DNA from: Pomacea canaliculata
Lineage: Eukaryota > Mollusca > Gastropoda > Architaenioglossa > Ampullariidae
Reading direction: 5' to 3'
Assembly: GCF_003073045.1 (NCBI RefSeq)
Contig: NC_037593.1
Location: 13,276,735 to 13,340,734 of the forward strand
Length of the DNA stretch: 64,000 bases
Shown: positions 39,254 through 64,000 of the stretch, in pieces
Layout: every line of letters starts with the position of its first letter
How positions within the stretch are numbered: the stretch's first letter is position 1
Position numbers and translations under genes: made by a program
Notes under the pieces: model-generated
Seen by the model: only the letters and a program-made list of their open reading frames with translations
Told to the model about the DNA's origin: nothing
The model's database searches: none

Positions 39254-41935
39254 TTATGGTTCTCTCCATGCATACGCAGACTGAAATAGGTTCTCGAGCG
39301 CATCGTCGTAGTTGAGAGAGGAAAGCTCCGGACTTTCCAGGTCAGTGGTTGCAGTCGCTTCAAGAACGGACGTCGGGTTTAACGATGTGGTGGAACGTTC
39401 CAAGATCGCCAGTTGACACATGTGTCCAGTTTCGTTACTGCAGTTCATCCCCAGATACGAGAACAGAAGTTGCGATGTTTTGACTGGTGCTTTAGCCATG
39501 TTTTCGTACTTCAAGAGCGCGATACGACCTTCGTGTCGTCGACTCAATTCAAGCGCAGACGACAAATTGTCCTCGAGGATGCTGCAAGTGTTGAGCGCCA
39601 GAGTTGAGATGTCATTCGGTTTCGGGGTCGATTTCCATGTGGACCAGATCATGGCCCGCGGGTCGCGCACGAGGTAAAGGACAACCAGGTCACGGTGACG
39701 TAGAAGTAAGGGTTCAAGGTGTATAAGTCGCGACCCTACGACCTTGAGAAGTATTGTCTTGTTGAAGCATTCACTCTCTGCTTGCTCCACACAGGACGAA
39801 AGTTCGGCAAATGATCTGATCATATTGACGCTGTCATTGCCTGAATTCAAAGAACCTTTGGCTTCAGCAGCTGCTTTAACGCATCTAGGGATTAAAAAAA
39901 AAGAGACATACACAAGAAATTAAACATCGTTTCGCTCATTTGCTCCTTCATTCGAGTTAGAGGGGGGTAGAGAAAGAGAGTTTTTAGTCTGCAACATTTC
40001 TAAAAGCATGTCTAGAATTGGAATTGGTTGAAATTACAGCTAGTGCACGCTTTCCCTGCTTCATCTTCGTAAGAAAGCCGTAAGTTGTTGGCTTAAGCTG
40101 TAATGAGCCTTGTTCATTAACGCTAAATCTCAAGGTTATTTGCAGATTTTTGGCTTTAGCACAGAGCAGGGTGATGACAGATGGTTTGAGCGAGCTAACG
40201 TAGTTACCGAGCCAGTGTTGCTGTCTTTGGGTGAAGAGCGAGAGCACTAGCATTCAGGGTGGTCAGATCCATGCGGCTGAACCCACATGTGAGCAGCGCA
40301 TCCAGCAGGGCAATGCTGTCCGAGTACAACTTGTCCGGGAAGCTACCAGTATTTCCTGCCCTGAGAGAAGATATATATTTTTTTTCAATTTTTTTTTCTC
40401 TCTCTCTCTCTCTCTCTGTCCCTTTGGGTCGCTCCCAACTCTTCCATCCTACTCTCCCATCATCACATGATGATTGATGGATGATTGATGGATGATGGAT
40501 GGATGATGATGATGATGATGATGATGAGGAGGAGGAGGAGGAGGAGCGGAGTATTATGGACTATGGGCTGCTGCATTACAATTTTCTTTTTTTTTTTTTT
40601 CTTATTTAAACTACAGAGGATGCGACTTTCTTTGGAAGGGAATGTATCATTTGAGTTAAATAAGGTACAAAGAAATCCAACAAAGACTTGATATATCCAT
40701 GGATCGATCGATTATTACGTAATATCACGCTGTGACCTCCATAACAGAGAGGAAGATGAATATGAAAAGAAGGAGTTGCATTGTTGCCGAGAGACAAGGT
40801 CCAAGGAAATGTTTACTCACCGAGAACGCCAGTCGTACATTTTCACCTCATGGGAAGATAGCCGAGTAAGAGGCTCAAAGATGTAGTATATCCTAGATGA
40901 GAGGTCAAGGATGTCACCGATCAGTGAGGCGCCACAACTCGGCTCGCTGACCAGCAGGACTTTCTTCGCCTGGGTGTAAGAGCTGTTGATGGCTCTGGGG
41001 AAGGTCCTGGTGCTGGCGTTTACTAACAGCGTCCACAACACAGCATCTGAGCAAACAGTGCATGCTCGTCACACCGGTCCGCCAACAATCGTCGTAATCG
41101 TTGCTGCGTCCTCGTTGCTTCAGTTTCAGTCTTTGACTAATCTACCATCAGTATCTGCACGTCTGAATGGGGTTAGAGGCGAGGTGGACACAGAAAGGCT
41201 CACTTCGATGTATAATAATAATTATGACCGGGGCTATGAATGGGTGAAGAACAACGAAACGATTCTTAGTGTAATGAGACTGATTCATTCATCCATTCAT
41301 TCAATTCATTCGTTTATTCAAGACTGCGCATGTTTTTGATAAAAAGATGAAACTAAAAAAAAAAAAAAACAATTTCAAGCTATATATTCAGTCACAAAGA
41401 AAGCTCTTCTTAATCGGGAAGGTGTCCTCGAACGTCTGATCAAGGGTGTGTGTGTGTATGTGATAGATAGAGAGAGAGAGAAGGTCACATAAAACCAAGA
41501 TTTGTGATGCAGCATTCAAACTTTGGTCAGCATCCTAAGTTCAACTTGTTTACCAATACCTTTGCCAATTCAACGGGATTTAGAATGTTTGACATTTTAA
41601 TATGATTTATTGTATTTTTAATAGAAAGAAAACCGGATAACAGGCTGCTTCTTTATGTGAAAAGGGTAATACAATCCATGCTGTCAACTGCAGTACATTA
41701 TATGAACTATTGATCATGATTCAAAGATTTAACGGCTGTGTACGTGCGCGTGAGGAGGTTACCCCGGTTAAAAATGACCTTTAGAGGGAAATTCAGTAGT
41801 CATGTACTAGTTATTCTCACTAGTATTTATTAGTACGTTACCGGCTTGTCATTGAAAACACTCACAGAACAGTAATGCCAGAAGGGAAGTCACCAGAATG
41901 CTTCTTTTCAGTGGGTGACGACAGATCCAGCGCAT
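39254..41935 (-). CDS. Carbohydrate sulfotransferase (CHST1/3-like), Golgi type II membrane protein, 3 coding exons
   Basis: Predicted to transfer sulfate from PAPS to a glycan in the Golgi lumen. Exons: 41866-41935, 40821-41046 and 39254-39884 (TAA at 39254-39256), joined by GTGAGT donors and CAG/TAG acceptors in exact phase to give 308 aa. Residues 12-32 form a hydrophobic signal anchor, split by the first intron, after a basic N-terminus (MRWICRHPLKR). The 5'-phosphosulfate-binding region is at about 52-68 (SEPSCGASLIGDIL), followed by IFEPL at 79-83. The 3'-phosphate-binding motif LVRDPRA is at 170-176. N-glycosylation sequons at N33, N44, N140, N246 and N249 fit a lumenal domain. The protein is short for the family (usually about 390-480 aa), with almost no stem. 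In-frame ATGs lie upstream (41986, 41965), so the N-terminus could be about 10-17 aa longer. Acceptor substrate cannot be assigned. A candidate minus-strand AATAAA lies at 38512-38517. Confidence 0.85.
40469..40546. repeat. Compound GATT/GGAT/GAT/GAG repeat
   Basis: A patchwork of ATTGATGG units, then eight or nine GAT units, then GAG units. It lies in the second intron of the sulfotransferase gene. Confidence 0.9.
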
Positions 41936-46915: not shown

Positions 46916-49706
46916 TTCAAGAAAACAGTATCCTTCACACAAAAAGAAAAATGTGAAGCTGTAAAAACACCCCTCACAGTTGTTCTCGGATGCGCCCGCA
47001 CAAGCAAGCATGCACAAAAAGAGAGGAAAAAATTTCAACTTTGTAATTTCTTCCAGATGTATCTCTGAAGTAAACGACGCAAGAAAGTTTTGGTACAGCA
47101 ACATTGCAGCCTGCAGGCGCAGTGAACACGCACACGCTACATTTCTAACTTTGACACTTGTTAGAGATAATAGTGCATTCATAAATTATCCAACTGGCTA
47201 TGTTATGCCACGTTTTAAAATAATAAAAAAAAACCACTACACCCAAGCTTTTCTGGTGCACCTTTAAAACATACGCTTGGCTCTTGGGTTGCGGAGGACA
47301 AATTAAATAAAACTCTTTTATCTGTTGACAACCATTCCCTGTTCAAACAGGCTCAAACACATCTGAATGGCATTAGTCAAGTAGTTCTGGTAGGGATCTG
47401 ACCATGTTATGATCACGCTCTTTACTAACAACACATTAAAACAAGTGACCTTTACTGTGTGAATGTGACAAACTGCCTATTTCCTCAGCTTCACAGAAAT
47501 GAAGACATCAATCTATGTTCATAACAGTATTGTTTTTCCCAAGATGTTGGAGAAGGAAAAGTAGCATTGCCATGCATTCAAAAGGTGGTAAATCGGGTGT
47601 TGTGTATGGGTGGTAGCAACATAAAATGTAAGGAGCAAGGGACACGCTGAATAGTCCAATAATGCTCGGGTAAGCCAACCGAACAATTAGAAATACATGA
47701 TTGAACACTTATGTACATGTTTTAACTAAAAGAAACACGCAGAACAGATTACTGTGGGGAAATGGTAAGGCAAAGTGTGGAAGCCAAAGCAGGTCATAAA
47801 ACCTGGACAAAAAAAAATTACACTAAAACTCTTTTGATGGACAAAATATCTAAGAAATACACAATTCTGAAACTTAATACAAAAGAAACAAAAATAAAGA
47901 CTTGGTGAGAGACTCAAAAGACATTGCAGTGCTCCATTTTCGGTCATCCTTCAAAGGTAAACATTTCTCCTCTCTCATACTTCACAGCCTTGCTATTCTA
48001 GCATCCCAGACTTTCTAATCACAGTGAGGACACAACCACTTACAGAACCCACTAATCGAGACAATCCTTGGTGTGAATCTGTCAAGCACTCATGGGGGTG
48101 GAAAAACAGGCGTTATGAAATAATGTCACCTAAAAAGAAATAAAGTGCTCCTTCAGCTAAATTTAAAAACCAATCTTCTCTGTGATGGCATTTTATTAGG
48201 GGAAGAAAAGTGCACTAGAAACACCACACATCCTTGGGCCACAACAGTCTCATCCGCAGATCTATTATTAATTTTGTTTTCTAGTTCAATCATCAGCATA
48301 CAACCATGGCCAAAGATGTAGAATGATGGTGTATTTTATTATCATTACTGCCTGCTATACATAATGCCCAGAGTTACCACACACACAGTACATGCACACC
48401 ACAAAGCTCTGCTCTAAGTCCCTTCTGGCAAACAATTATTAGGATGTGCAGCAACATCCCCCACATCTAGTTCTGGGCTGCTTGTTGATCAAATATCATG
48501 AAAATGTAGCTGTGGTATGTGACTTTACAAAATGAGGGTTGAAACAGCAGAAAGGACAAAGACAATGTGGTCAATAACAGTGGTCACAAATATCAGCACA
48601 AACACACCATACACATCATGTTATTAGCATGGCAGTGCACACGTCAAACTTCTTTTTCATATGTCAACCTTTAAACATGCATCATTTGCACACTTTTATA
48701 CATATTTAAGAATCCGTACCCATGTGTGAGCTTCCTGGATGACAAGTTTCCCACACAGTTCATTCAAAGCCTTGGTGCTTGCTAGCTACAAGACTTGTCG
48801 AAGTATCTAAATTCTAGGCAGCAAAATGTTATGCCACCCCACACTCCATGAAATACCCCAGCAGAAAAAAAAAAACAAACAAACCCAAATTCCTTCTTCT
48901 CTACAATCTCCACTAATGTACATCTATAAGGAGCTGAAATATGATGATCATCATAAACATGCTAAATGTCAGATAAGATCCTGAGTTGCTATAGTCCAAG
49001 CACAGATTAACAAATCACTCCTTTCGTAGCAGCAAGAACAAATGCGAGTGCTGGTAGTTTACTGCTCATAATGGTGGTCATGGTGATCAAACCTAGATCA
49101 AGCCAGCACCCAGGGACCACTGCAGTACATTTATATGCACAAAGAAGAATGTCAGTTCACAGAGAACGAACCTTTCTCTAGCATCTTTGATCTGGCGTCC
49201 AGCTGCGACATGGTAGATTGACGCTACTGGATTGGGTGAAAAGGAAGAACTGGGCAAGAAGCTCATGTCTCTGTGGTCACATTGGACAAGACTTGCTGCC
49301 TGTTATAGTTTCTTGCCCATACCTATGTCAGTGGTACATACAACCTTCTAGAACAGTCTTTTCTTTTAATGTTTGTAAAAACAAATTTGTTCAGTTGAAA
49401 GGATGCAACAAGAACATCCTGTTTAATTTTCTCAAGCACAGCTTTTTTCCACAGAATTCTCTGTTTAAAGTTACATGATGCAAATTACTGTGGCACGAAA
49501 AAATTCCTTTCAAAAAACATGACATGAAAGTGTTTTTTTCTTCTTTTTTCAATCATGATTACAAACAACTTTTACGCCTTAAATCAACCTGTCTGAATGC
49601 AAAGATACAACCAAACAAGCTTAAAAGCAGCAGCAGGCAAGAAAAGACCACAGCATGTCCGTCATGACAAGGCAAGGCAAGGCCTGGACGCCAGATCAAG
49701 TCACCA

Positions 49707-49919
49707 TCAGCGGCTTAAGCTGTGTGAGCGCCGGTCAGAGGAAGTGGAGGATCGGGGGCTGTCACGGCGCAACAGGTCCTCTTCGAAAAACTTTCGGAAG
49801 AAAGGATGTCGCATGGCCTGTCTCAAATTGTAGCGTGAACTTGGTTCATATGCTAGCATCTTCTCAATCAGGTCAAAGAGCTGCCGATGATCTTCATTGT
49901 CTGGCTCCTTCATATAGCG
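49707..49919 (-). CDS. CLK2: CLK alternative terminal exon A' (short RS-tailed C-terminus)
   Basis: 213-bp exon after a TTAACAG acceptor, encoding 70 aa and TGA. It begins [14 protein letters not shown], aligning with the RYL...HHQL stretch recalled from vertebrate CLKs, continues [15 protein letters not shown] and ends the kinase fold with AMRHPFF. The last residues are serine/arginine-rich. It is homologous to the start of B' but lies about 3.9 kb beyond the end of B', so choosing A' requires skipping B' and its poly(A) site. Candidate minus-strand poly(A) signals lie at 48335-48340 and 48192-48197. Confidence 0.88.
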   Translation of the reverse strand, partial: RYMKEPDNEDHRQLFDLIEKMLAYEPSSRYNLRQAMRHPFFRKFFEEDLLRRDSPRSSTSSDRRSHSLSR

Positions 49920-52900
49920 CTGTTAAAAAAAAATCATTCACTGACAAGAGGCACCTTTTGATATAAAGGATATAAATATAGTACATGAAAGCACTAACCA
50001 GGGTGTAAGGATTTAAATATCTTCTGCATATATAAAAATCTTGGTTTCTAAACAATGGTTAAGTTGCAGATGTTTATTGGAAAAAAGTGTAAGGATCAAT
50101 CACTTCACAAAGACAGTGCAGTTGGGGGAAAAAAGAGAAATGGGTTTCCACATGTGATTTTATCCTATAAATCAATTTCCTAAAAAACTGAAACATATTC
50201 ATCCACCCATACAGATATGGACAGAAGAGTGACTTGTCAGACCAGCTTCTTTCCAGGCATTAATTACAGCCCATAAAAAACCAGCATGCTTTGATCTATT
50301 CCTAGTAAATATTTAGCAGTGTGATTCTACTCAACATTACTGATTAAAAAAGTGAATCTCGGATACGAGGATCTTTCGCCGAGATCAGTGTCCACTAGCA
50401 ACATCCCATCAGCATTTAGCAGTCTTCTTAGTACCATGTGCAAACCAGGAAAAGGGGCTGAGCATATGTTTGTGGCCTACCTTACAGCATTCTTTCACTG
50501 TGAACATCTTTTAGAAACTACACAAATTCACGTTCATTAAAAAGGAGAAAAAATTATTTGAATCAAAGAGAAGTTCTGAGTCGCTTTCACTGTTGCCTGC
50601 GCTTGCTCAAGTAGTAATTTTACGTAATGGGTAGTAGAAACAAAGCAAAACAATGAAAGAGAAAAGTGATGCTGCCTAATGCATGAAAGTCCTATATTGT
50701 CTACATGGCCCTGGCTCCTCCACCTTTGACTTGTAGCCATTACTGTCGTGAACTTTTCTTCCCAAGTGAGAAAAACTAGACCGAAGTGGCTGAACATTTT
50801 GAGAAAATAAAATTATTTTTTTTTGCTCATTTGAACCAAAAATGCACAGAAACTTATACATAAACAGCATAGTATTAGTCCTTACAGCTATGTCTAATTT
50901 AACAATTATATTTGCTTTTAAAGAATAACAAGTTTATGGCAGAAATTATTATTTGTGAGTTCTTGCACAATATATTTTATGCACTTAAATGATAAGTGGA
51001 CAGACTCTTTTTTTATGACAGGAAAATTATGTTTCCCCTTTTTATTTTGTATTTGTCCCTAAAAACTGCACAAAAGTATTATTTTTTTTAATTTATTGTG
51101 ATTTATATATGTAGAATTTGGCAATCACATTACAGTGAAATTTAAAGGCAGTAGGCAAAACATTTTTCTGCACATTTTCTGTTTCTACTACAATTCATTC
51201 CTTTAATAAAGCAATACTGTGACAGCTTTATGGATATTTATTAATGCATATCTTGCAACAGTGTTATCTTCCCACTTACAAGGTTCCCTTTGCCAGCAGT
51301 TATTTTAGAATCGATGTCTGATGGTGCAACACATCTTTTACACTACTTTTCTCCACACCTGGCAAGGAAGTTTGAGCTTACACTGTAAGCAGTTGTGTTT
51401 CAAGATAACACTCACGTTCTCACTTTTATACTCACGATGTCATATTGGGATTTAACCGATTAAGCGTGGGGCATTTATCATGTTATCTGAAAATCCTGAT
51501 TCAAAATGTCGAATGCATATTTTGAGTTTGCCATCAGCATGAAGTTCTCTCTTTGTATCACAAAGTTTTTTAGGCATTCACCATAAAGAAAGTATATAAT
51601 ACTAACTTTTATCTTGCTTTTTTAAAACATTCACCATTGTGACAGTGATCTTTCTAACCCATCTCGTTATGTTTGTATAATTCATTAAAGACAACAAAAT
51701 GGCTAGCAGACTGACCCCCACTTCTGCTTAAACCATTGACAAGCATAGACTGGGCATGTGTTGAGTAATTGACAAAATAGCCTCATTGTTCATACCTAAC
51801 TACTAAGCCTTATAACTTTGACAGTTGAACTGCTGTTGGCGAAACCAAAATTAAGCCCTACTTAGCACTTAATAGGACAAATACCAATCATTAGTAAAGA
51901 TCAACTTTCATTCAGTTTACACAAAAATTCAACAGCCAAACATGTTAGTGGCACTTTTTAGCCTAAAACTAATCTGACATTCTCTCTCTATAATTCAACT
52001 GAAAAAAGACTGCTGAACAGCAAACTTAATCTCATCCCTGGCACATGAATCAATCAGAAGGCTCATGCATAAGACCACTATTAAAACAGTGTAAAAAATT
52101 TTAAAGCCTCATGGAACAAAAAATCCAACTCAAGCTAAATATTTACAAAAGACTAAAGGGGGTAAGGCTGATAATCAACTGTGACTGCACAACAGTTTCC
52201 AAAGCACAATTCACGTCTTACCACTCGAAAGCTGGCTCCATCAGCAGCGCATACCCTATATGCTCATAAAACCCTCCTGATGTAAACCGATATAAACTTG
52301 AATCAGATTGCACCACAACCACCACCACTAATAATACATGCGTCACTGGCAAATGCACTTAGTGCTGAAGCCACACATAGCTATTAAGGTCAATGGCACA
52401 CCCAATAATTTTTTTCATGACTTAATCCCCTCATTCTAACAGACTTTGTAAGTATTTTTGTTTAAACTGCTTTTTTACTTTACAATGCCAGTCTTTGGAT
52501 TTTTGAGGTGCAATGCAGCTTTGATAGTATACACTTTTGAATATCCAACCACATTTAAGTAACATGACCACTTTGCATGGTATTAATGTCAATGTAAAAT
52601 CCTAGAAACCTTTTTTCTCTCTTGGGAACCCTAGACTTCTCAGGACAGGCAATTCACCTTCCATTGTGTAAATATCTGAGAATTTCTTTAGGAGTAATTG
52701 CTCACTTTTAGTCTATTGGTAGACTAAAAATGGTGAAGCAGGATTTTGGCACTATCACTGGGTGTTTCACTAAACTATAAAACTCACCAAGTATCTTGCA
52801 ATGTACAGTCTAATTATAAAAAGCCCACTGCCTCTGACCTGTGAGTCTCTAGACACAATGAACATCAATATTATCGTCATGCATAGGAAGACACCAAAAG

Positions 52901-55900
52901 GAAATTCAACAACGATGCAGAAAAAATGCGCGCATGAAGCAGATTGAAAGAGAAGGAGAAATTCAGTATGCACATCCTGGTGTTATAGGTGAGAGGACAT
53001 AGTGAGACAACAAAAATTATGACAGGACAAATGTGTTGCACACTTTGTGCTATACTCTGCATACACCTCACCCAGATTATGAAAACAATTCCATGCCAGT
53101 CTAATTTGGCTGCATGGCAGGTAGAAAGAAGAATATATTTTTCAGATTTTTGATGACAGAAGAACTGGAGAACCCTTTCTAAATGATCATCATGCATCAT
53201 TTAGACTCCTCCCACCCTTTAAAAAAAAAAATAATGAAGCATGGCACAGCCACATTGTGCAGGGTGAAAGCATCAACAAACTTTCAAGCATTATGGACAT
53301 GAGCAGATGTCACACACTGGATCACTGTCAATGCATATGCAAAAATCTATAATAAAGGCTTTGATCTTGAAGCTGATATCAGCGTTAGAGAATGGAATGA
53401 TGGGGTAAGTCAGAGAAAAATCTTATAAAATGTCAATGTGTGTGTGCACGATGCAACCACTTAAGTAAAACGGATTTCTATAATACTGGGGTAGAAATTT
53501 TCCCTCGGCTGTTTATAATTTGCATTTCTACGATGATTTACTGAGTAGGAACTTTACTTGCAGCAACTTCAGATGACAATGACAACAATAAGCCAAAACC
53601 ACACTATGGGCTGATTGTGTATTCCTCAAATTCTTAAAGATACTTTTTGTATTATTTCTAATGCAAGTAACATTCACAGGTAGAGGCATAAAACTTAAAA
53701 ATATCTTTTAAAACTGTACAAGTCCTTCTGAAACCGCTTAACATCCAGTGTCATTTTCAGAATGCTTAACTATGTTGAAAGCCAGCCATTAACTTTTGCT
53801 GTCTAATGTTTCCTCTGCTAGCACAAACTCATCTGTGTCCGACACAAGTGAATCTCCTGCATCTAACTTACTAAACTCTTGCTGTTTCTTTTCTCCACTG
53901 GCGCTTCTCCCACCATGCACACCATTCACTCTCTCAGTGTTGCTCCCCATGGCCAAACCCTCCTCTGACTTTTTCTCCCCAGTTAGTAAGTTGCTCCCCT
54001 TGGTCTGTGCTTGAGCCTCACATGCACTCGCACTGTCTACTGGGACTTTTTTTTTACCCTGGTCTCCACCATAAGCTTTATCATCAGGAAGAACTGGGGC
54101 AGTAGTGCTATGTGCAGGTGGGGATGACAAAGGTGTGCCCTCCACAGAACTGCGCTCACCAGGTGCTGCTGGCCTGCGTCTTCTCTCTCGACGACGTCGG
54201 ACGCGTGCCTTTTGGTCCTGTCCAACTTGACCTTGTGTGGTTGCTGGTGCTACAGAAGGCATTACTACAGCCGGTGCAGTCTCAGTAGCAGGCTTTTGCT
54301 CCTGAGTTGTTTCATTTCCTTGCAGAGATGTTGGCGCTACTACTGATGCCTCTGCTGCTGGTGCAGGAACACCGAAAGGCTTGTGCTCTTGGCTAGGCTG
54401 ATTGTTGGATGAGACTGCTGGTACTGGTGCTGATGATGGTAACATAGCTGGTGAAGGACTGTTACCTTGATTTGCAGCATCTGGGACAGCAGCTACTGAT
54501 GGTGCAGCACATGACTGTGATGAACCTATAATGGACACACCTGTACTCTCTTCATAGGGACTTTGCTTCTCAATCCAGGCTTCAAATGCATTAACCGATT
54601 CAGCAACAAGGGCAGGTTCCTGTTGTTTCTGCTGTATTGGCGCTGCTGGTTTTGGAGGCTTGGCAGCTGTGGAAGGTGGATGCACAGGTTGAGTGACTAC
54701 AGATGTAGAGGCAGAAACATCTTTGGATGGGACAGATGGCTTGGTGAAGGGTTGCAGAGACGGCTTGGGAGGAGATGAACACACGCACACTGGGTCAGGT
54801 GGATTAGATATGCACTTTGTTTGCTGCATGCTCCCTACCTGTACTAGGATGGGTGCTGCTGCAACATTTTCTTCTGGAGCTTGGGTTAAAAATATTCCTG
54901 GCCCTTCACTTAAATGAAAGTTTGGTAGTGTGGGAGTTACAGCTATCTCCAATGGCTCTTCCTCAAACACGTTGTCAAGCTTTTCCTCTGGCTGCTCATC
55001 TGTCTCCGTAACACTAGAATCAAAAGACCGAAGGCTGCTGCCAGCAGAGGCCTCTGGGAATTGCCCAGCATCAATGGCAACATCATGAGTAGGGATGGGT
55101 GGGTAGAACTGTGCAGGAGTCTGTGTTCCTTTATCCTGCATTCTAAAGGGAGCATCAGAGAACTCATGTGGGCTGGGGCACATCTCACGATAGAACCTTT
55201 CTGGTGTCTGAGTGCTCTGATTGTAAAAATGGCCCATTCCTAATGCTTCCATGATCTCAGGAGGGTCTAAGTACTGTGGAGATTCTGGAGCCTGTTCTAT
55301 GATTGTTCTTACAAAACTAGGTGGTTTGACTGCAAATGACCATGGCTGTTTCAAAGCTATTACTCTTGGAACAGGTTCAGGCTCTTGTACAACTACAACA
55401 GGCTTCTTCAGATGCGGCACTTGGAGGTTTTGGGACTCAACCCCCTCGTCCCCACTCATAACACTGTCAACTGGACGAGCCTGGTCTGAAGCCAAAGTGA
55501 TAAGCGGAGGTGTCTTTTCTCGCAGTTGCTTGCTTTCTCGTCGACGGCGCCTGGCCTTCACTGGTGCCTCGCCTGTACGCTGTTTTAGCATTTTTGCCTT
55601 TTCAGTTGGTGATGCTGGAGCTGGTTCTTGCAAATCTTCCTGCACATGCCCTTCCAGGGTCCTTTCCACAGCAGCTTCTCTCTCCAGTCGCCTAACTATG
55701 GCTGTTTCTTCTAGCTTGGTACCTCGTGCTCTCTTCAAAGCTGTTGGTGGGGCTGTGACATCAAGATTTTCCAAAACACAACTGCTTGGAGGCAAACCCT
55801 CCCATGTACCTTTTTCCCTTACAATGTTCTCCAGCTTAGGGTTAACAGGCAATTTGTCAGCCAGCTTCAAACCCATGGCCCCTTCTTTAGAGGGTTTGGA

Positions 55901-58900
55901 GGGTGCTTCCACATTAGCAGCTGCACCCTCCAAATCTTCAGTGATTCCCATTTCTTGCTCACCTGACAAAAGAGAAGAAGGGGAGGTAGAAGAGGGTAGA
56001 GAAGGGGGCAACATGTCACTGTTAGTCACAGCAGGCACTTCAGCCACTAGTAAGGAGGAAGCAGATTCAGGAAAGTTATGGTTAGTGGTTGTGGTTTCAG
56101 GTTCATCAAATGAGCTCATGAGCTGCTGGGCACGCATTTCGCGTTTGACAGGAGTGAAAAATGGGTGGCGTAGGGCCTCCCTCAGGGTAATGCGCTGCTC
56201 AGGCACATATTCCAACATTTTCTCTACAAGATCTAGCAAATCCACGTGGGCGGCTTCTTTGTCCACCAAATAGTGCTGCAGACAGGACACAAGAGACAGA
56301 CCAGTCAGTCAACAACCACAATGCATGTTAACATTTCACCTCCTGAACTTTCAAACCCATTCTCAAAAAGACCATTTCTGGTCAACAGCAAGGCTTTTTC
56401 TTTTAAAAATTAATTTTATAAATCTTAAGGGAAGCAAATACATATTTCACAGTGATCTGCAGATTTAAATTTCTCATGTATGAAGTGTGCAAATGTGTCA
56501 AAAGAAGTCACGCAAATATGGGCAAAAGGGCTTTTTGTGCAAAGGCCCTGATTTGCTGCTTTTATTGTTTTTGATTTTTTTTTTGTGTAGGCAACTCTTT
56601 GAAGAAAATGTAAAAAAAAAATAAAAAATAAAAAAAAGGAAAATAAATTAGTATAAAAAAAAAACCAGTTTCTTTCTCTCTATATATATGTATTCTCTTG
56701 CCAATTATTATACCCAAGTCCGACTTTTTGGCTGCATGCACAGAAAGTCCTATGTCTCAACCATGCTATCATGCAGGGCAATGCACTGCAAGTCCCTAAC
56801 ATGCAATCTATTTGGAAATTATCTCCTTCATTTGCAAACTGATCTTTTGAATCTTTTTCACGTCAAATGTCTATTATACTTTTAAAGTAATGTGGGGGAT
56901 GATGATGCAGCTATGGAATACTTGTGAAGGCTAGCAGCAAGATCTGAATCTAAGATTCTGTCAACTGTTTGTGTCATGTTTTTTGTTCAGCCAAACAATA
57001 AGTGAAAACCCCTCAGCTGGTAAGATAAACCAGACATGCCAGCACATGTGCATCTTCATCAATCTCAGTGTTTAAAGATATTTTGCCATGCAACCATTAC
57101 CTACTGTGACCCCATACCAAAATACCGTTACACTAGACAATCAGGTAGCCTAATTAAAATATAACAGCTGATATCCAACATACTGTTACATCATCAAGTA
57201 TACATGTGCACCACTCATTCAAATGTTAGCATCTAATTCACTGTAAATTTGTCTGCCAGTGGCAGCAGCCCACCAAACAAAAAAAAAAAAAAATGCATGC
57301 AGAATAACCACTTATATTTTCCACACACAAAAAAATCCACGATGCAGTCCACAAGACCTGAAGGTCATGATGTGGGAGTGGGAGAGGACCAAAATGATAA
57401 GTGATACCAGTGCATGCACACTCTGTCTACGTGTTCACACTGCACCTATTTGTGTGCACACACGTAAAACAAAAGTCTGCTCACAATTTATTCATGTGCC
57501 AGGGTAAACTGCTAAAACCTCCACCCCTCGCTCTTTGTTTATTATCCCAAGAACAATTGACTGATAAAATAGTTCTAACGCTTGGTATCCTTATAGGTGA
57601 ATGTCTAGATAAGCGCAAAAAGACAAAATCAAAGATAAATATTTGCATAAAGTCAATAACCTGAACATTAATCTTTGACTAGGAAGATGATGTGATCTTA
57701 CCAAACATGAAAATAAAAGAGGCACATTTAGATACTAATCACAGAACTAAAAAGGGTAGTGGAGTTAAGAAAAATAGGAGTAAAAATGTAAACAATAATA
57801 AAACATGTTAAATTTTTTTAGGAAAAGCAAGCCTAATGCTTTTTACAGAAGGAAAAAAAAAGAAGTTAATTTCTAATGTCTTCTCCAAAAACAGAACTTA
57901 AATTTTTCATCCCTACAAAAACCAGTTGTAAGCCTTCAATATTGTTTTTATGTACAAAGTTCAGTGAATTTCAGGTGCTGATGAAGAAAAGGCAAAAACA
58001 AAGAACAAAAACATACATAAACTAAAATAATGACAGTAAGTCCTCTGTACTCTCCCACAAAAAAAAAAACAAAAAAAAAAACAACAACAAAACAAAAAAC
58101 CCACACCCACACCACTTTTCCAACACCCACTTCCCAATCGAAACCACCTTCCTCGGAATACCTACCATAAAAATTTATCTGAACAATGTGCCAACACATC
58201 ACATGCCAAGACAAATCGGATAAAAAGTAAAAGTTTCATCTCTTACCAGCAAAGGTTTACAGTTTTCTCGGACGTATCGTCCAGCTGAGCTCTTCTCATC
58301 CCAGTCTAAGCGACCATGGTAGAAATACTTTTGCTTTCTTTTAATGCAGAAGAAAATGGGAAAAGAAAAGGGGAAGGCACAATCAGCAAACCAGCATGCG
58401 TTGTCCACAAAAAAAAAATAAAAGAAGTCGTTTAAAAGTTAATACACAAGCAAGCTCACTGCAACATCAATATGCACTTACTGTGTGGCTGGCTATTAAG
58501 TGTACACAACGGAAAGGGAGAAAATGACACAGCTAAACAATGGTGCAGGCTTCTAGGAATTACAACAGAATAAAAGAGGTGCAAGTCATGCTTTGCATCA
58601 ACAGCCATTAGTCTGCTATGCTATCCTGATTGGATTTTCAAGAATGAAGCGAAAACAGAATAAAGAAACGATAGTAGCAGATTGGTCTGCCCACTTCACT
58701 CCAGAATGAGCAGGGTGGTACTAAACACCCTACACAACCTTTGTGAATTACTGCTATAGTGTATTCAAAATGATCAACCCAACACAAACTGGGAAGAAAA
58801 AACAACTGATAGCAATATTTTCTACCCTCGTGGATTCATAAAGAGAAAAATGTCTCTTTACAGCAGTTTCTTTACTGGTCAGCTGGTTTTCATGAAGGAC

Positions 58901-61900
58901 TATAAGAAAGACAAAAATTTAAGTTACAGCTTGCAAAACCTCGGAGAATTGTCAGTGAACCAAAAGATAAAAGCAAAGGGCAGGTCACTCCACTGCAAAG
59001 CATTCCAAGCCAAAAGTCGGACATGCATGCCGAACACATCAGCACAATAGACCACCCTGTTCCCTTCCCCAAAACAGGCAAGCACAGCACCAAAATCACT
59101 TCCACTGACAAGAATGGGTGTCCGATGCAGACAACAGGACACACAAGAGATACTCACGTAGAGAGGCTTGCAGTTTTCACGGACATAGCGCCCCGCCGGG
59201 GTGAGAGGATCCCAGTCGAGGCGCCCGTGGTAGAAGTAATTTGTTCTTTGCCAAATTGAAGAGACAGAAAGAGTGATTTTTCAGAGAGGCACAAGTATTA
59301 ACACATTTTCATAGAAAACACTTTTTTTCTGTTTGAAACTGAGCCAACAACCTAAAACCAGAGCCTGTACCTGGTAACAAGAAATAATATAGATAATGAA
59401 AAGATGACATCTCTTAATTGCAGCCAAAGAAATGAGAGCAATTAGCTTGTCTGTTTTGTAAAGCCACTGTGAGTGCATATTGACAACAGAAGCTTTCCTA
59501 GGAAAAAACATATTTGCTGAACTAAAGATTACAGCAAAATACAGATAAATGATGCTAACACCCCATAACAGTGCAAGTAGACAAGATTTTTTAAACATCA
59601 AAATAAAAGTAATGACTGAATAAAAAAACTTACAAAAATGTTCTTTAAACTAGCACTGCACTTGGAAATCTTTATCAAAATGACACTTTATTGCTCCCCA
59701 ATTCTGAAGACTTTTCACAGCATCAAACCAATAATGTGCATGCCCTTCCATTCTGTTTTCACTTTCAAAACTTTTCATATAGTTTCCATCTTGTTTAATT
59801 GTTTAAAAACAAAAAGGGCTTGGGAATGCAAAGTGGAAAAAGGGTAGTCAGAAAATGAAGATGTTGTGCAGAAATAATGCACACTGTAAAACAAATCTGA
59901 GGCTAAGTGCTTACTTGGTTTTCTTGGCCATGCGGTACGGCAAGGAACCCAAAATTCGTTCCATCATTGCTAGATGCTCTTTGTTGTCATGTGTCTGATT
60001 ATAAACAAAGAAGCAAAGTTACAAAAATTAAACAAGCTCAGTGTGCAGGCATTTCAACAGCTTGAAGAAATTTTGAAATTTTAAGAACACTTCAAATGTA
60101 AAGTGTAAGAACATTACCTGAAAGAGTGTGTAACCAGTGTAGAGTTCAAACATAATGCAGCCTACACTCCACACATCGCATGGCTGTGCCCACCCTAATT
60201 CTGGAAAGCATTCACATATACAGTTTTATACTGATTACAGTGAATCATGGCAAGATGTTTTGTTGGATCTACAGCCGTTACATTATTATACTTAAAAAAT
60301 ATTTATGTCAATGAAAATGACGAATCAACTGCAAACAGGCAGAAAAAAGCATCTGAAACTGTAATCACTTTCAGAAAGCTAATTATAAAAAAGTAGTTAT
60401 CTACTTTCATAGCTACCAATACTATTCCATACCCAAGATGACTTCTGGTGCCCTGTAGTGCCTTGTGCTGACAATGGTGCTATGGTGTTCATGGTCAAAA
60501 GTTGCAGAACCAAAGTCTATCAATCGAATGTCTGTTCTTTTGATTCGCCGTTCATCTCGTCTCTTGTTTAAAAAAAAACTCGTTAATGAGAATTTAAATT
60601 CTGTCTTCATACAACAATAAAATTCATCAATAATTAGAAAATTCTTTTCTACTATTTATCTGCACTTAATTTTTAAAGTTGCTGGCTGTGGGCCCAACAT
60701 GTCGTAAATCAACCACTAAAGTGCAAAGAGAAAACACTGTCTGAACGTACTCTTTTTGAATTGTAGACAACCTCAAAATTTGAATCAACAAATAAGATGT
60801 TCTCTGGTTTCAGGTCTGTATGAGTCAGCTGGTTTTCATGGAGGACTAAAAAACAGACAAAAAGTAGGTTCATTTGAACTTTCATTTTAACATATAGTTT
60901 CTTTTTTAAAAATGTGCATGTTGCTTATGAAACATTTCAACTTGTTACTAAAACAAGTTTGCAAAGATGTACTATTACCTTTTTCTGCATATTAAGACAA
61001 AAGATTAATTTCATCCACTCATATCCTATGCCACATCAACTGTTAACAAATCACAAAAAAGTACTTACAGTTTACTGCATAGCAAAGCTGGTATGATATG
61101 TGTCGAACTTGCTCGATGGGATATGCAATGTAGTTGTTTTCTTTCTATTGACAAAAGTGAAATGAGAATTTCATAATCTAGAAAAATGTTTCCTCAGTTT
61201 TATCTTAAGTCTAATATTTTATTAGGCACCACAGAATATGCACTGGAGTACTGACTAGATTTCAATCTGATATTCAATTTTAGAGTTATAATTACAATAC
61301 TGTTTTTTTTTAAGGGTAACATCTACAAAGAAAACAAATAAAAACATGCTCGTTCTTTCTGTAGGAAATGTCATTTTTTATAACTGTCTTCTGTGCCAAC
61401 CTTTATGCTACTGATAATTACCAAAAAGTCAAAAACACTGAGGCCCAGCATATCAAAAGAGATGCAGACATGGCCATGGAAGTCAAACCAATCAAGCATC
61501 TGAACACACATGCTGCAATAAAAAAAAAAAAACCAACTTTGTTATACCATGTGTGTTAGAAAAAATGGTTAAGAGGGTTGGGGAAACATAGACATTCTAT
61601 CTTCAATGCAGCTCTAAGACTAGTTATATAATGAATAAGCCACAGTATTACACTTATGTTTGGGAAGTGGAATAATTAAAAAAGGCATGTCACAAAAATT
61701 ATAAGAAATAATACACATCTAAAGAGTGTTTGAACATCCCCAAAGAAAATAATGCACAGCTTTCATTAATGTAGAAACTCAAAAGTCTCTCTTTGCCTGA
61801 AGTAGGCGATCTAGACAGAAAGGTGATAAAGACTCACTATTTTCCTGCTGGATCTTTCTCCTTCAATTTCTCAAGCACATTAATCTCAAGTTTAGCAGCC

Positions 61901-61954
61901 TCCCGATACTTTTCCACATTCTTGATGACTTTGAGAGCAATTGTTTCTCCATTC
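49707..61954 (-). CDS. CLK2: CDC-like (LAMMER) dual-specificity kinase, 5' partial, isoform ending in exon A'
   Basis: CLK kinases phosphorylate SR splicing factors in the nucleus. Exons read here: 61838-61954, 61422-61512, 61069-61144, 60751-60845, 60433-60562, 60118-60200, 59915-59994, then A (59158-59245) or B (58247-58337), then A' (49707-49919). Every junction keeps phase. In the visible 323 aa (A form): VAIK-type lysine at 8 (IALKVIKN), catalytic loop HTDLKPEN at 103-110, DFGSATF from 142, APEVILELGW, and the family signature [11 protein letters not shown] at 203-213. The tail after the HPFF box is short and RS-like ([20 protein letters not shown]), a possible autophosphorylation segment. 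The glycine-rich loop and N-terminus are not in the window, so the gene continues past position 64000. One donor, after 61422, is a weak GTAATT. The CLK2 symbol is by best recalled resemblance; invertebrates often have a single CLK, so a CLK1/4-type name is possible. Confidence 0.93.
53789..56275 (-). CDS. CLK2: CLK alternative terminal exon B' with kinase C-lobe end and long disordered tail
   Basis: A 2487-bp terminal exon with acceptor CTGCAG, encoding 828 aa and a stop. The first about 45 residues are the end of the kinase domain ([16 protein letters not shown], then [10 protein letters not shown]), homologous to exon A'. The remaining roughly 780 residues are low-complexity, rich in P, A, S, E and Q, with no globular domain that I recognise. 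Visible elements, in exon residues: ARRRRRES near 243-250 and [12 protein letters not shown] near 692-703 (basic clusters, possible nuclear signals or RNA contacts); TQT motifs at 355-357 and 384-386 in QSTQTPE and DKGTQTPA; an acidic C-terminus (SLVSDTDEF). The sustained open frame of this length in AT-rich DNA, starting exactly at a phase-correct acceptor, supports coding. Candidate minus-strand poly(A) signals further down lie at 51237-51242 and 51041-51046. Confidence 0.85.
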   Translation of the reverse strand, partial: HYLVDKEAAHVDLLDLVEKMLEYVPEQRITLREALRHPFFTPVKREMRAQQLMSSFDEPETTTTNHNFPESASSLLVAEVPAVTNSDMLPPSLPSSTSPSSLLSGEQEMGITEDLEGAAANVEAPSKPSKEGAMGLKLADKLPVNPKLENIVREKGTWEGLPPSSCVLENLDVTAPPTALKRARGTKLEETAIVRRLEREAAVERTLEGHVQEDLQEPAPASPTEKAKMLKQRTGEAPVKARRRRRESKQLREKTPPLITLASDQARPVDSVMSGDEGVESQNLQVPHLKKPVVVVQEPEPVPRVIALKQPWSFAVKPPSFVRTIIEQAPESPQYLDPPEIMEALGMGHFYNQSTQTPERFYREMCPSPHEFSDAPFRMQDKGTQTPAQFYPPIPTHDVAIDAGQFPEASAGSSLRSFDSSVTETDEQPEEKLDNVFEEEPLEIAVTPTLPNFHLSEGPGIFLTQAPEENVAAAPILVQVGSMQQTKCISNPPDPVCVCSSPPKPSLQPFTKPSVPSKDVSASTSVVTQPVHPPSTAAKPPKPAAPIQQKQQEPALVAESVNAFEAWIEKQSPYEESTGVSIIGSSQSCAAPSVAAVPDAANQGNSPSPAMLPSSAPVPAVSSNNQPSQEHKPFGVPAPAAEASVVAPTSLQGNETTQEQKPATETAPAVVMPSVAPATTQGQVGQDQKARVRRRRERRRRPAAPGERSSVEGTPLSSPPAHSTTAPVLPDDKAYGGDQGKKKVPVDSASACEAQAQTKGSNLLTGEKKSEEGLAMGSNTERVNGVHGGRSASGEKKQQEFSKLDAGDSLVSDTDEFVLAEETLDSKS
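58247..58337 (-). CDS. CLK2: CLK alternative exon B (tandem homologue of exon A)
   Basis: 91-bp exon with an AAAAG acceptor and GTAAGA donor, entering and leaving in the same phases as exon A. It encodes 30 residues, [17 protein letters not shown], then [13 protein letters not shown]. From YFY onward 22 of 27 residues match exon A. The KQKYFY start is the form I recall for vertebrate CLKs, so B looks like the more ancestral version and A the more derived one. The acceptor choice, one base before the AAG lysine codon, is fixed by the phase of the preceding LAMMER exon, which ends with two bases of a lysine codon. Confidence 0.85.
58877..58922 (-). pseudogene. Relic copy of the CLK catalytic-loop exon 5' end
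   Basis: On the minus strand this reads TATAG, then codons for LHENQLT, the start of the exon at 60751-60845, and then diverges (SKE...). Positions 58878-58917 match 60824-60863 at 36 of 40 bases, including 17 identical bases and continuing across the splice acceptor into the intron. The HTDLKPEN catalytic loop is missing, so it cannot replace the true exon. It is best read as a remnant of a partial internal duplication of the kinase gene. Confidence 0.7.
59158..59245 (-). CDS. CLK2: CLK alternative exon A (MAPK-like insert region)
   Basis: 88-bp exon bounded by a CAAAG acceptor and a strong GTGAGT donor. It starts with one base completing the lysine codon of the LAMMER exon and ends at a codon boundary, encoding 29 residues with the family block [10 protein letters not shown] then [12 protein letters not shown], ending in Y. 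In the CLK fold this stretch follows the LAMMER helix and forms the MAPK-like insertion. Between the two conserved blocks it reads PLTP, where exon B reads EKSS. It lies about 820 bp upstream of B. Alternative use with B is inferred from homology and phase, not from transcripts. Confidence 0.85.
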
Positions 61955-64000
61955 CTGAAAACATAACATTTATGAAATTCTACAAAGTTAAAAAAACAAG
62001 AAGAAAACCCCCCAATATACTAACACTCAAGTCAATAGTCATACTCTTTCAAGAGCACAAGGTCAACATGCCAGCGCACATTTATGTGTGCAAAATTACA
62101 CGTTGGCGGTGTCTTCCCAATATAACAATACCATGACTGTATGCTGGAATCGCTAAAAATAAATGACTAAGTTTGAAACCTTGCCAGCTCCAGCTTAATA
62201 GCTTGCATTCAGTTACATTAAGTTGTGAATCTCATGGGGGACAAACACTTTCATGTCCCATTGACCTGTGTTACATAAGACCTGTTTAATGTTCACACCA
62301 AACGTTTATTTTTTCTTTTTTGTTAAAAAAAAGCAACAATATCAAAAAAGTTATAATTGAATTTTGTCATTTCACCATTCCAATAAGTTTATTTGTATTG
62401 GGCAATATCACAGCCAGACAAGCTCACTGAGCTGAAAAGGATCCACGAAACAGTCACAAAAGATGTAAAACAAAGAGCAACGTGAAGACTCGCTGTGTTC
62501 CGTAAGGGCAATCACTGCAGATTTAACAATAATGTCTCCAGCAAACAAGAATAAGTGACACCAGGAGAAAACTGAGAATATATTGAGAAATTTTGAAAAT
62601 ATTAAGAAAAGTTAGCATATTAAACAGCAAAAAGGTGATCAGCATTTCAGGTTCTAGACTGCATCTCAAGGTCACTGCTGAAGCGAGTGAAGCATGCCAG
62701 AGTGGAATCCAGCCATTAGATCCAATAAGTTCACACTTCAAAAGAATATTACATACACTCCAGCTGCAAAACAAAAGAGAGGAACAGATGCAGCAGAAGC
62801 ACATGTAAACATAAAGAGCCAACACTTACATCGGAATCAACACATGACACAACACAGAAACAAAATCAAGGTAAGTCAATTCTCTCAGCCTGGTAGAAAA
62901 AGGGACACAGCTCTTCTCACAAAATGCAAAGAAATTCTGGCTTCTTCTACACTAAAAAGCATGCACATACTAATTACTCTCCTTATCCCAACCTCTGAAA
63001 ATAAAAGTACCACAGAAGCTAACATCCTAAGCCATAGCCTACTTACCCTACTTCATTTCCCTTTTATTTATTATACTTTTATGGGTTTTGTAAATCTTCC
63101 CAATGCTCTTCTCCAAATCTTGATTTCTCCCCCCTATTTCTCATTTAGCTCACACACTTGGCACAGAGTCAAGTGGAAAAAAAACAACATAAACATGCAA
63201 GACAAAACTACAATTGTTTACAAACTTAATACTTTACAACCCGATTATTTACAGATATACAATGTCTATTTATAGTCACCATGAGAAGAGTAGCTGGTTC
63301 TATATTCAGTGCAAAAAAAAATTCCCCTAAAACCAACAATTGAGGTATTTATCTTGTTGAAATTGCCTATTCCAAACTTGCATTTTCCTTTTTTTTTTTT
63401 TTAAAAACAAATTAACAGCTGTTTGGAAACTATCAGTTCCATCACACCTCAGCACTCCCACCCATACCTTTCCCAATCTAGGGCAATGCAAGCATCAAGC
63501 TATTAGGAAGCAGCCATTTCACTCCCCCTACCCACCCCTGAACCCCAACTCTCTCCTGGTGACCATGACAACAGCACCAAAAATAGATCAGTTCAGGGCG
63601 GACTGCTGTAGAGGTTTTCTTCCCTTGCCTTGCTCTTGTATCTTCTTAGGTGCGGTATTTAAGTGAGGCTATACCCATTTAGATGGCAAGCTTCCAAAAC
63701 TGCTGGTATGGCAGTTCACAAAAACCTGGCAGCCAGAAAGTCCCTCACTCAATGGTTCAGAAGAAAAACTACTGCCCTTCTGGTGTGCATGGGATTAAAC
63801 TGGGTAAATGCTGGACATAGTTTTTGTTTCTTTATTCTATTTAAAGACAAATTACAGTAATTTTTAACTATGGGGGGTGGGAATGGTTAGCAAATTATTT
63901 GGAATGGATCATTGATATTTCAATGCCTTCTTTTAAGAGGGACATCAGGAAAAAATATTTGGCTGAAAGAGAGAAAACCTTATCATTATATGTTAACCCT
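61955..64000. other. CLK intron continuing past the window edge
   Basis: The first visible CLK exon starts at 61954 in the kinase N-lobe, so the exon with the glycine-rich loop should lie upstream on the minus strand. I could not find it before position 64000. The stretch is AT-rich with no other recognisable feature. Confidence 0.6.

Follow-up and report, generated by a model that had tools for sequence, protein, structure and literature searches.

How could a single CLK/LAMMER kinase gene give rise to several kinases? This question is raised by a locus of the gastropod Pomacea canaliculata, analysed here in a window of 64,000 nucleotides (contig NC_037593.1, positions 13,276,735 to 13,340,734; coordinates below are those of the window), which carries a CLK2-like LAMMER kinase gene on its minus strand. 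Based on the exons, reading frames and homologies reported here, we suggest a model in which an exclusive choice between two homologous exons, A and B, is enforced by the reading frame and is combined with a choice between two alternative last exons, A' and B', to give short and long-tailed CLKs. We consider this model highly probable. In it, one of A or B would be taken after the exon encoding the LAMMER motif, and the transcript of this apparently sole CLK/LAMMER gene would then end either in B' (proximal, with a 788-residue tail) or in A' (distal, with a 29-residue Ser/Arg-rich tail). In this way, as many as four kinases could arise by splicing of the gene's own transcript. The exons involved are the following.

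61838-61954, minus strand: shared exon x1, N-lobe (splice borders, frame and human CLK2 alignment)
61422-61512, minus strand: shared exon x2 (splice borders, frame and human CLK2 alignment)
61069-61144, minus strand: shared exon x3 (splice borders, frame and human CLK2 alignment)
60751-60845, minus strand: shared exon x4, catalytic loop (splice borders, frame and human CLK2 alignment)
60433-60562, minus strand: shared exon x5, DFG and activation segment (frame and human CLK2 alignment)
60118-60200, minus strand: shared exon x6 (splice borders, frame and human CLK2 alignment)
59915-59994, minus strand: shared exon x7, LAMMER motif, ending in phase 2 (splice borders and frame)
59158-59245, minus strand: exon A, 88 nucleotides, phase 2 to 0, one codon shorter than in human CLK1/2 (AG/GT borders, frame and CLK alignments)
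58247-58337, minus strand: exon B, 91 nucleotides, phase 2 to 0, equal in length to human CLK1/2 (AG/GT borders, frame and CLK alignment)
53789-56275, minus strand: exon B', last kinase helices and 788-residue tail, with the stop at its end (open frame, AG border and homology)
49707-49919, minus strand: exon A', last kinase helices and 29-residue Ser/Arg-rich tail (AG border, frame and CLK2 alignment)

The seven core exons within the window (61954 down to 59915) and two exons upstream of them, in L009, give an unbroken CLK kinase domain. Apart from the 5' border of the first L009 exon, where the start was placed arbitrarily and the first core residues are uncertain, the borders of these exons are GT-AG. 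Human CLK2 is the best solved-structure match of the product of the core, A and A' (E 7e-179 over residues 11-362). Like human CLK2, this product keeps the LAMMER motif (the signature is in the translation of x7), a catalytic loop with HTD in place of HRD, which is described as a CLK trait (PMC2667211), and the conserved tryptophan of helix alphaH in the MAPK-like insert, which is retained in both A and B; as judged from sequence, the region of the beta7/8 hairpin also aligns to CLK2 without gaps. The difference lies in the variants: the longest human CLK2 chain matched (499 residues, with the match reaching residue 485) lacks a long tail and contains each segment in a single version. On the same strand, still farther upstream, RS-rich open stretches containing MPRSRRKRSYSRDSSYD are a candidate N-terminal RS region.

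By homology, A and B both represent the later part of the MAPK-like insert together with alphaH. An earlier sequence-only reading of this DNA had placed the two exons at the coordinates given above, with 22 of 27 residues identical and with PLTP versus EKSS in their cores, and all of this is borne out, with AG/GT borders; over all aligned codons, the identity is 22 of 29 residues. The two exons differ at 29 of 87 bases, with a proportion of synonymous differences (pS) of 0.79 and of nonsynonymous differences (pN) of 0.21, and when the same number of base changes was placed randomly, the observed amino-acid identity was reached in none of 2000 trials. The layout, with adjacent homologous exons of equal phases, fits a mutually exclusive exon pair.

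The terminal exons follow the same theme. A' and B' both begin in phase 0 and both encode the last kinase helices, followed by very different tails (29 versus 788 residues), as had been proposed from the sequence. In the shared part, 20 of 40 residues are identical and 53 of 120 bases differ (pS 0.89, pN 0.32), and again the amino-acid identity was reached in 0 of 2000 trials with as many randomly placed base changes. B' lies within an open frame of 839 codons, while the longest in 200 shuffles had 246. The stretch from x7 joined to B-B' matches CLK2 with 139 bits and that joined to A-A' with 126 bits, CLK2 being the best PDB match of both. The sequence-only reading is supported in part: it holds as regards the layout, the homology within the pairs, the interchangeable frame and the shared core, and also in its tail of almost 800 residues for B'; its label of an "RS tail" for A' does not hold, because this tail is Ser/Arg-rich but has no RS repeat.

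The key to the proposed exclusivity is the reading frame. All four in silico joins (A-A', A-B', B-A' and B-B') keep an open frame. Inclusion of both A and B shifts the frame and gives a stop at codon 329, and inclusion of neither gives a stop at codon 289 (with A') or 300 (with B'). As only single inclusion avoids a premature stop, a full-length kinase requires either A or B but not both, and the frame logic is stronger than the sequence-only reading had said. The phases permit free mixing of the two pairs, which speaks against a special case of our model in which the modules are linked, so that only A-A' (the transcript runs on) and B-B' (it ends early) would be made. This linkage would fit the order A, B, B', A', in which the pairs are nested, and the fact that B and B' match human CLK1/2 in length while A has one codon fewer and A' one more; however, a large distance along the chain separates these two one-codon changes, and neither has to offset the other. 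We regard linkage as a serious but tentative possibility, with somewhat less than an even chance.

Because synonymous sites are saturated in both pairs, the duplications giving rise to A/B and A'/B' would be old. From the constraint on the encoded residues, we infer that both members of each pair are functional coding sequence. This constraint also bears on the idea that B', alone or together with B, has its own internal promoter and gives a tail protein devoid of kinase activity. The entire tail is in one exon, B', and fly Doa isoforms arise from alternative promoters (according to a title cited in PMC4849719), which fits this idea, but protein-level constraint has preserved B and the initial 40 codons of B' as kinase sequence, and they match CLK1/2 without gaps, which would be needless for a tail-only product. 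We therefore consider an internal promoter improbable.

Do B and B' belong to a second kinase gene? In searches of the snail's own genome (440,159,624 bases in 24 contigs), the core query gave 35 matches, 10 of them at this locus (including one in a redundant assembly copy of the 5' part of the gene), and identity does not exceed 48% in the remaining 25. Similarly, a query with the C-lobe segment gave 14 matches, five at this locus and nine that are at most 52% identical. The genome thus appears to hold one CLK/LAMMER gene, as far as these searches show, and molluscs are described as having a single CLK gene (PMC12795684). The case named by the sequence-only reading as refuting, in which B and B' form a separate gene with core exons of its own, was looked for and not seen, as there was no second LAMMER core among these best-candidate searches. 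With no other LAMMER core found among the best candidates scored, B and B' seem to be without a core of their own, and a separate CLK gene for B/B' was rejected on this basis.

Some observations weigh against an exclusive exon pair in a sole CLK gene. The stop arising from joint inclusion of A and B lies 49 bases before the end of B, which is borderline for nonsense-mediated decay, so the frame may protect the protein product while the mRNA persists. Given the 820-base length of the A-B intron and the GT-AG borders, exclusivity is explained neither by crowding nor by mixing with the minor spliceosome. Pairing of the x7-A intron with the A-B intron (-35.9 versus a best value of -34.5 in 10 shuffles) is marginal. 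Moreover, the own-genome search scores only the best candidates and is not exhaustive, because it left unreported the redundant copy of x1 that BLAST shows. For two other intron pairs, pairing was no better than in the shuffles (10 per pair), and over the three intron pairs control of exclusivity by intron pairing is unconvincing. With rough weights, the donors of the seven shared exons score from -0.5 to 4.0; the donor of A falls among them at 2.5 and that of B lies above them at 5.0. We draw no conclusion from these values.

What would the choice between A and B change? Human CLK1 is described as having a large MAPK-insert-like insertion (residues 400-432) that contains a two-strand sheet (409-418), Trp419 and helix alphaH (424-432), and alphaH as covering the site equivalent to the SRPK1 docking groove and burying the LAMMER helix (PMC2667211). 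In an ungapped alignment, counted from the numbering of the motif, A and B span approximately residues 407-437 of CLK1, and the PLTP/EKSS difference corresponds to residues 421-424, at the onset of alphaH and immediately ahead of it. In our model, the choice would change mainly the start of this helix. Given the position of this CLK-specific helix over the SRPK-type docking groove and over the LAMMER helix, which it buries, the choice probably tunes substrate docking or the stability of the C-lobe. In addition, a Thr-Pro pair is present in A and not in B, making proline-directed phosphorylation of A alone possible.

The choice between A' and B' most likely sets localisation and partners, distinguishing a compact CLK from one whose long tail carries basic clusters and an LC8-like motif. 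The B' tail is rich in Pro, Ser, Ala and Glu, with 63% disorder-promoting residues versus 41% in the core, and is probably disordered over its 788 residues. Within it are 15 SP/TP sites, two clusters of basic residues and a pair of TQT motifs, one in the LC8-like sequence DKGTQTP (p about 0.008 by shuffling, for a motif picked after looking); this sequence has Pro at the +2 position, where the LC8 motif is given with Asp/Glu (PMC3078936). Two TQTPxxFY stretches lie 29 residues apart in the tail (55103-55213, minus strand). The tail matches nothing in Pfam but a sub-threshold kinase domain; among 60 of the 225 PDB matches of B' that were listed, no alignment extends past residue 74; and in the own genome no paralogue was found, the three matches being the query itself, A' and one at E 3. 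Likewise, 39 pattern matches in the genome_contigs collection and six in viral_contigs gave none that was confirmed, which says nothing about other snails because these collections hold prokaryotes and viruses.

Hexamers downstream of the two stops are candidates for the signals that would end the transcripts.

53512-53558, minus strand: weak poly(A)-signal variants (AGTAAA twice and TATAAA), candidates 230-276 bases past the B' stop (hexamer scan)
49365-49427, minus strand: ATTAAA twice, poly(A)-signal candidates past the A' stop (hexamer scan)

In the same scan, the first AATAAA lies approximately 2.5 kilobases beyond the B' stop. Because the hexamers after the B' stop are weak and A' is followed by two copies of ATTAAA, ending at the proximal B' may be the regulated choice.

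Could the kinase itself influence these choices? For human CLK1, skipping of exon 4, intron retention and feedback via SR protein phosphorylation are described (PMC11571805, PMC10082069). The snail gene resembles human CLK1 in being a CLK with a predicted alternatively spliced pre-mRNA of its own. However, skipping of exon 4 removes the catalytic site of CLK1, while here each single choice would keep the whole kinase domain and alter the late C-lobe and the tail. Because splicing of CLK1 exon 4 is under feedback from CLK activity, autoregulation of exon choice by the snail kinase is plausible by analogy. Going further, falling CLK activity might shift the balance between a compact SR-protein kinase (A-A') and a long-tailed B-B' form tethered elsewhere, e.g. 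via LC8, with a copy of the start of x4 in the A-B intron acting as a decoy that sets the balance; we regard this scenario as unlikely. CLKs have been proposed as regulators of thermosensitive splicing. If the scenario were true, such self-selection of C-lobe and tail by a CLK could, in a cold-blooded animal, serve as an isoform switch set by temperature.

The nearest known design is that of the MAPKs JNK1 and JNK2 (MAPK8/9), each described as combining an exclusive exon pair in the kinase domain with an independent choice of C-terminal coding exon to give four isoforms per gene (PMC8746764). The likeness lies in this combination, which in the snail is known from sequence alone, and concerns how the gene would work rather than family membership. 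JNKs are MAPKs and not CLKs, and their alternative ends give p54 versus p46, while here the ends differ by approximately 760 residues and each terminal exon contributes the final kinase helices as well. Drosophila Doa and C. elegans madd-3 are likewise described as sole LAMMER genes with several isoforms, as predicted here, and Doa isoforms as differing in their cellular place, a 225 kDa form binding microtubules (PMC4849719). However, the long part of MADD-3A is N-terminal and Doa isoforms are credited to alternative promoters in a title that PMC4849719 cites, whereas the extension here is C-terminal and in the last exon. Such an exon layout in a CLK was not found by title or abstract opening among the open-access papers listed, which does not show that it is unpublished. 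Vertebrates diversified their CLKs through gene duplication; this locus suggests that a single-gene lineage gained kinase diversity via exon duplication, at the helix that separates CLK from SRPK docking. The locus offers natural A/B variants for testing the role of alphaH, and a simple way to ask whether a splicing kinase chooses its own isoform.

The A-B intron contains one further feature.

58878-58917, minus strand: copy of the 3' splice site of x4 with the 22 coding bases that follow it (90% identity over 40 bases, E 5e-9)

A 25-base pattern fitted to both places, the start of x4 and its copy, with at most three mismatches, matches nowhere else in the window and in none of 100 shuffles. 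Past the first 22 exon bases the likeness is weak (71 of 1000 shuffles were as good), and splicing to the copy from A or x7 gives a stop within seven codons. No convincing traces of x3, x5, x6 or x7 were found in this intron (76, 150, 48 and 10 of 300 shuffles, respectively, were as good), the best alignment of x7 overlapping the x4 copy and being out of order; among 15 further exon-intron pairs nothing was striking, with 4 of 100 shuffles as good for the best (x6 in the x7-A intron). The copy may be a relic of duplication of a block from x4 to A, it may have arisen later as a small copy, or it may be a decoy 3' splice site. With the synonymous sites of A/B saturated, its high identity speaks against a neutral relic of equal age. 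Located upstream of B, this fragment looks as if the block from x4 to A had been copied and then mostly lost, as would be expected if B and B' were decaying relics of a partial gene duplication. Yet the frame is open through 91 + 2487 bases to the final stop, and the protein has been kept while synonymous sites became saturated, which makes decay of B and B' very improbable.

The assembly contains two copies of the 5' part of the gene, the stretch from window position 61205-64000 on to C4:13351131 recurring at C4:13380626-13395000. In this redundant copy, which begins right after a 100-N gap, long pieces are 81-98% identical and shorter ones 71-77%, and the copy of x1 has several small deletions. 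A second copy of the first kinase exon, 44 kilobases upstream, was ruled out as an alternative exon and represents assembly redundancy. The redundancy resembles a haplotype or contig overlap that was left unmerged, and it could lead annotations to list exon copies that do not exist. If haplotypes or misjoined contigs had similarly created the exon pairs, doubling of part of the gene right after a gap is what one might see. In the stretch compared, however, the redundancy is limited to window coordinates above 61204, and the numbers of bases at which A differs from B and A' from B' are far beyond those of alleles; an artefactual origin of the pairs is already largely refuted and scarcely credible.

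Elsewhere, Rfam gave no matches at gathering score in the part of the window from 49 to 64 kilobases. Among 10 frames scanned of the 63 listed with at least 100 amino acids, the sole Pfam match is that of a minus-strand open frame at 39254-39916 to Sulfotransfer_1 (E 8e-7).

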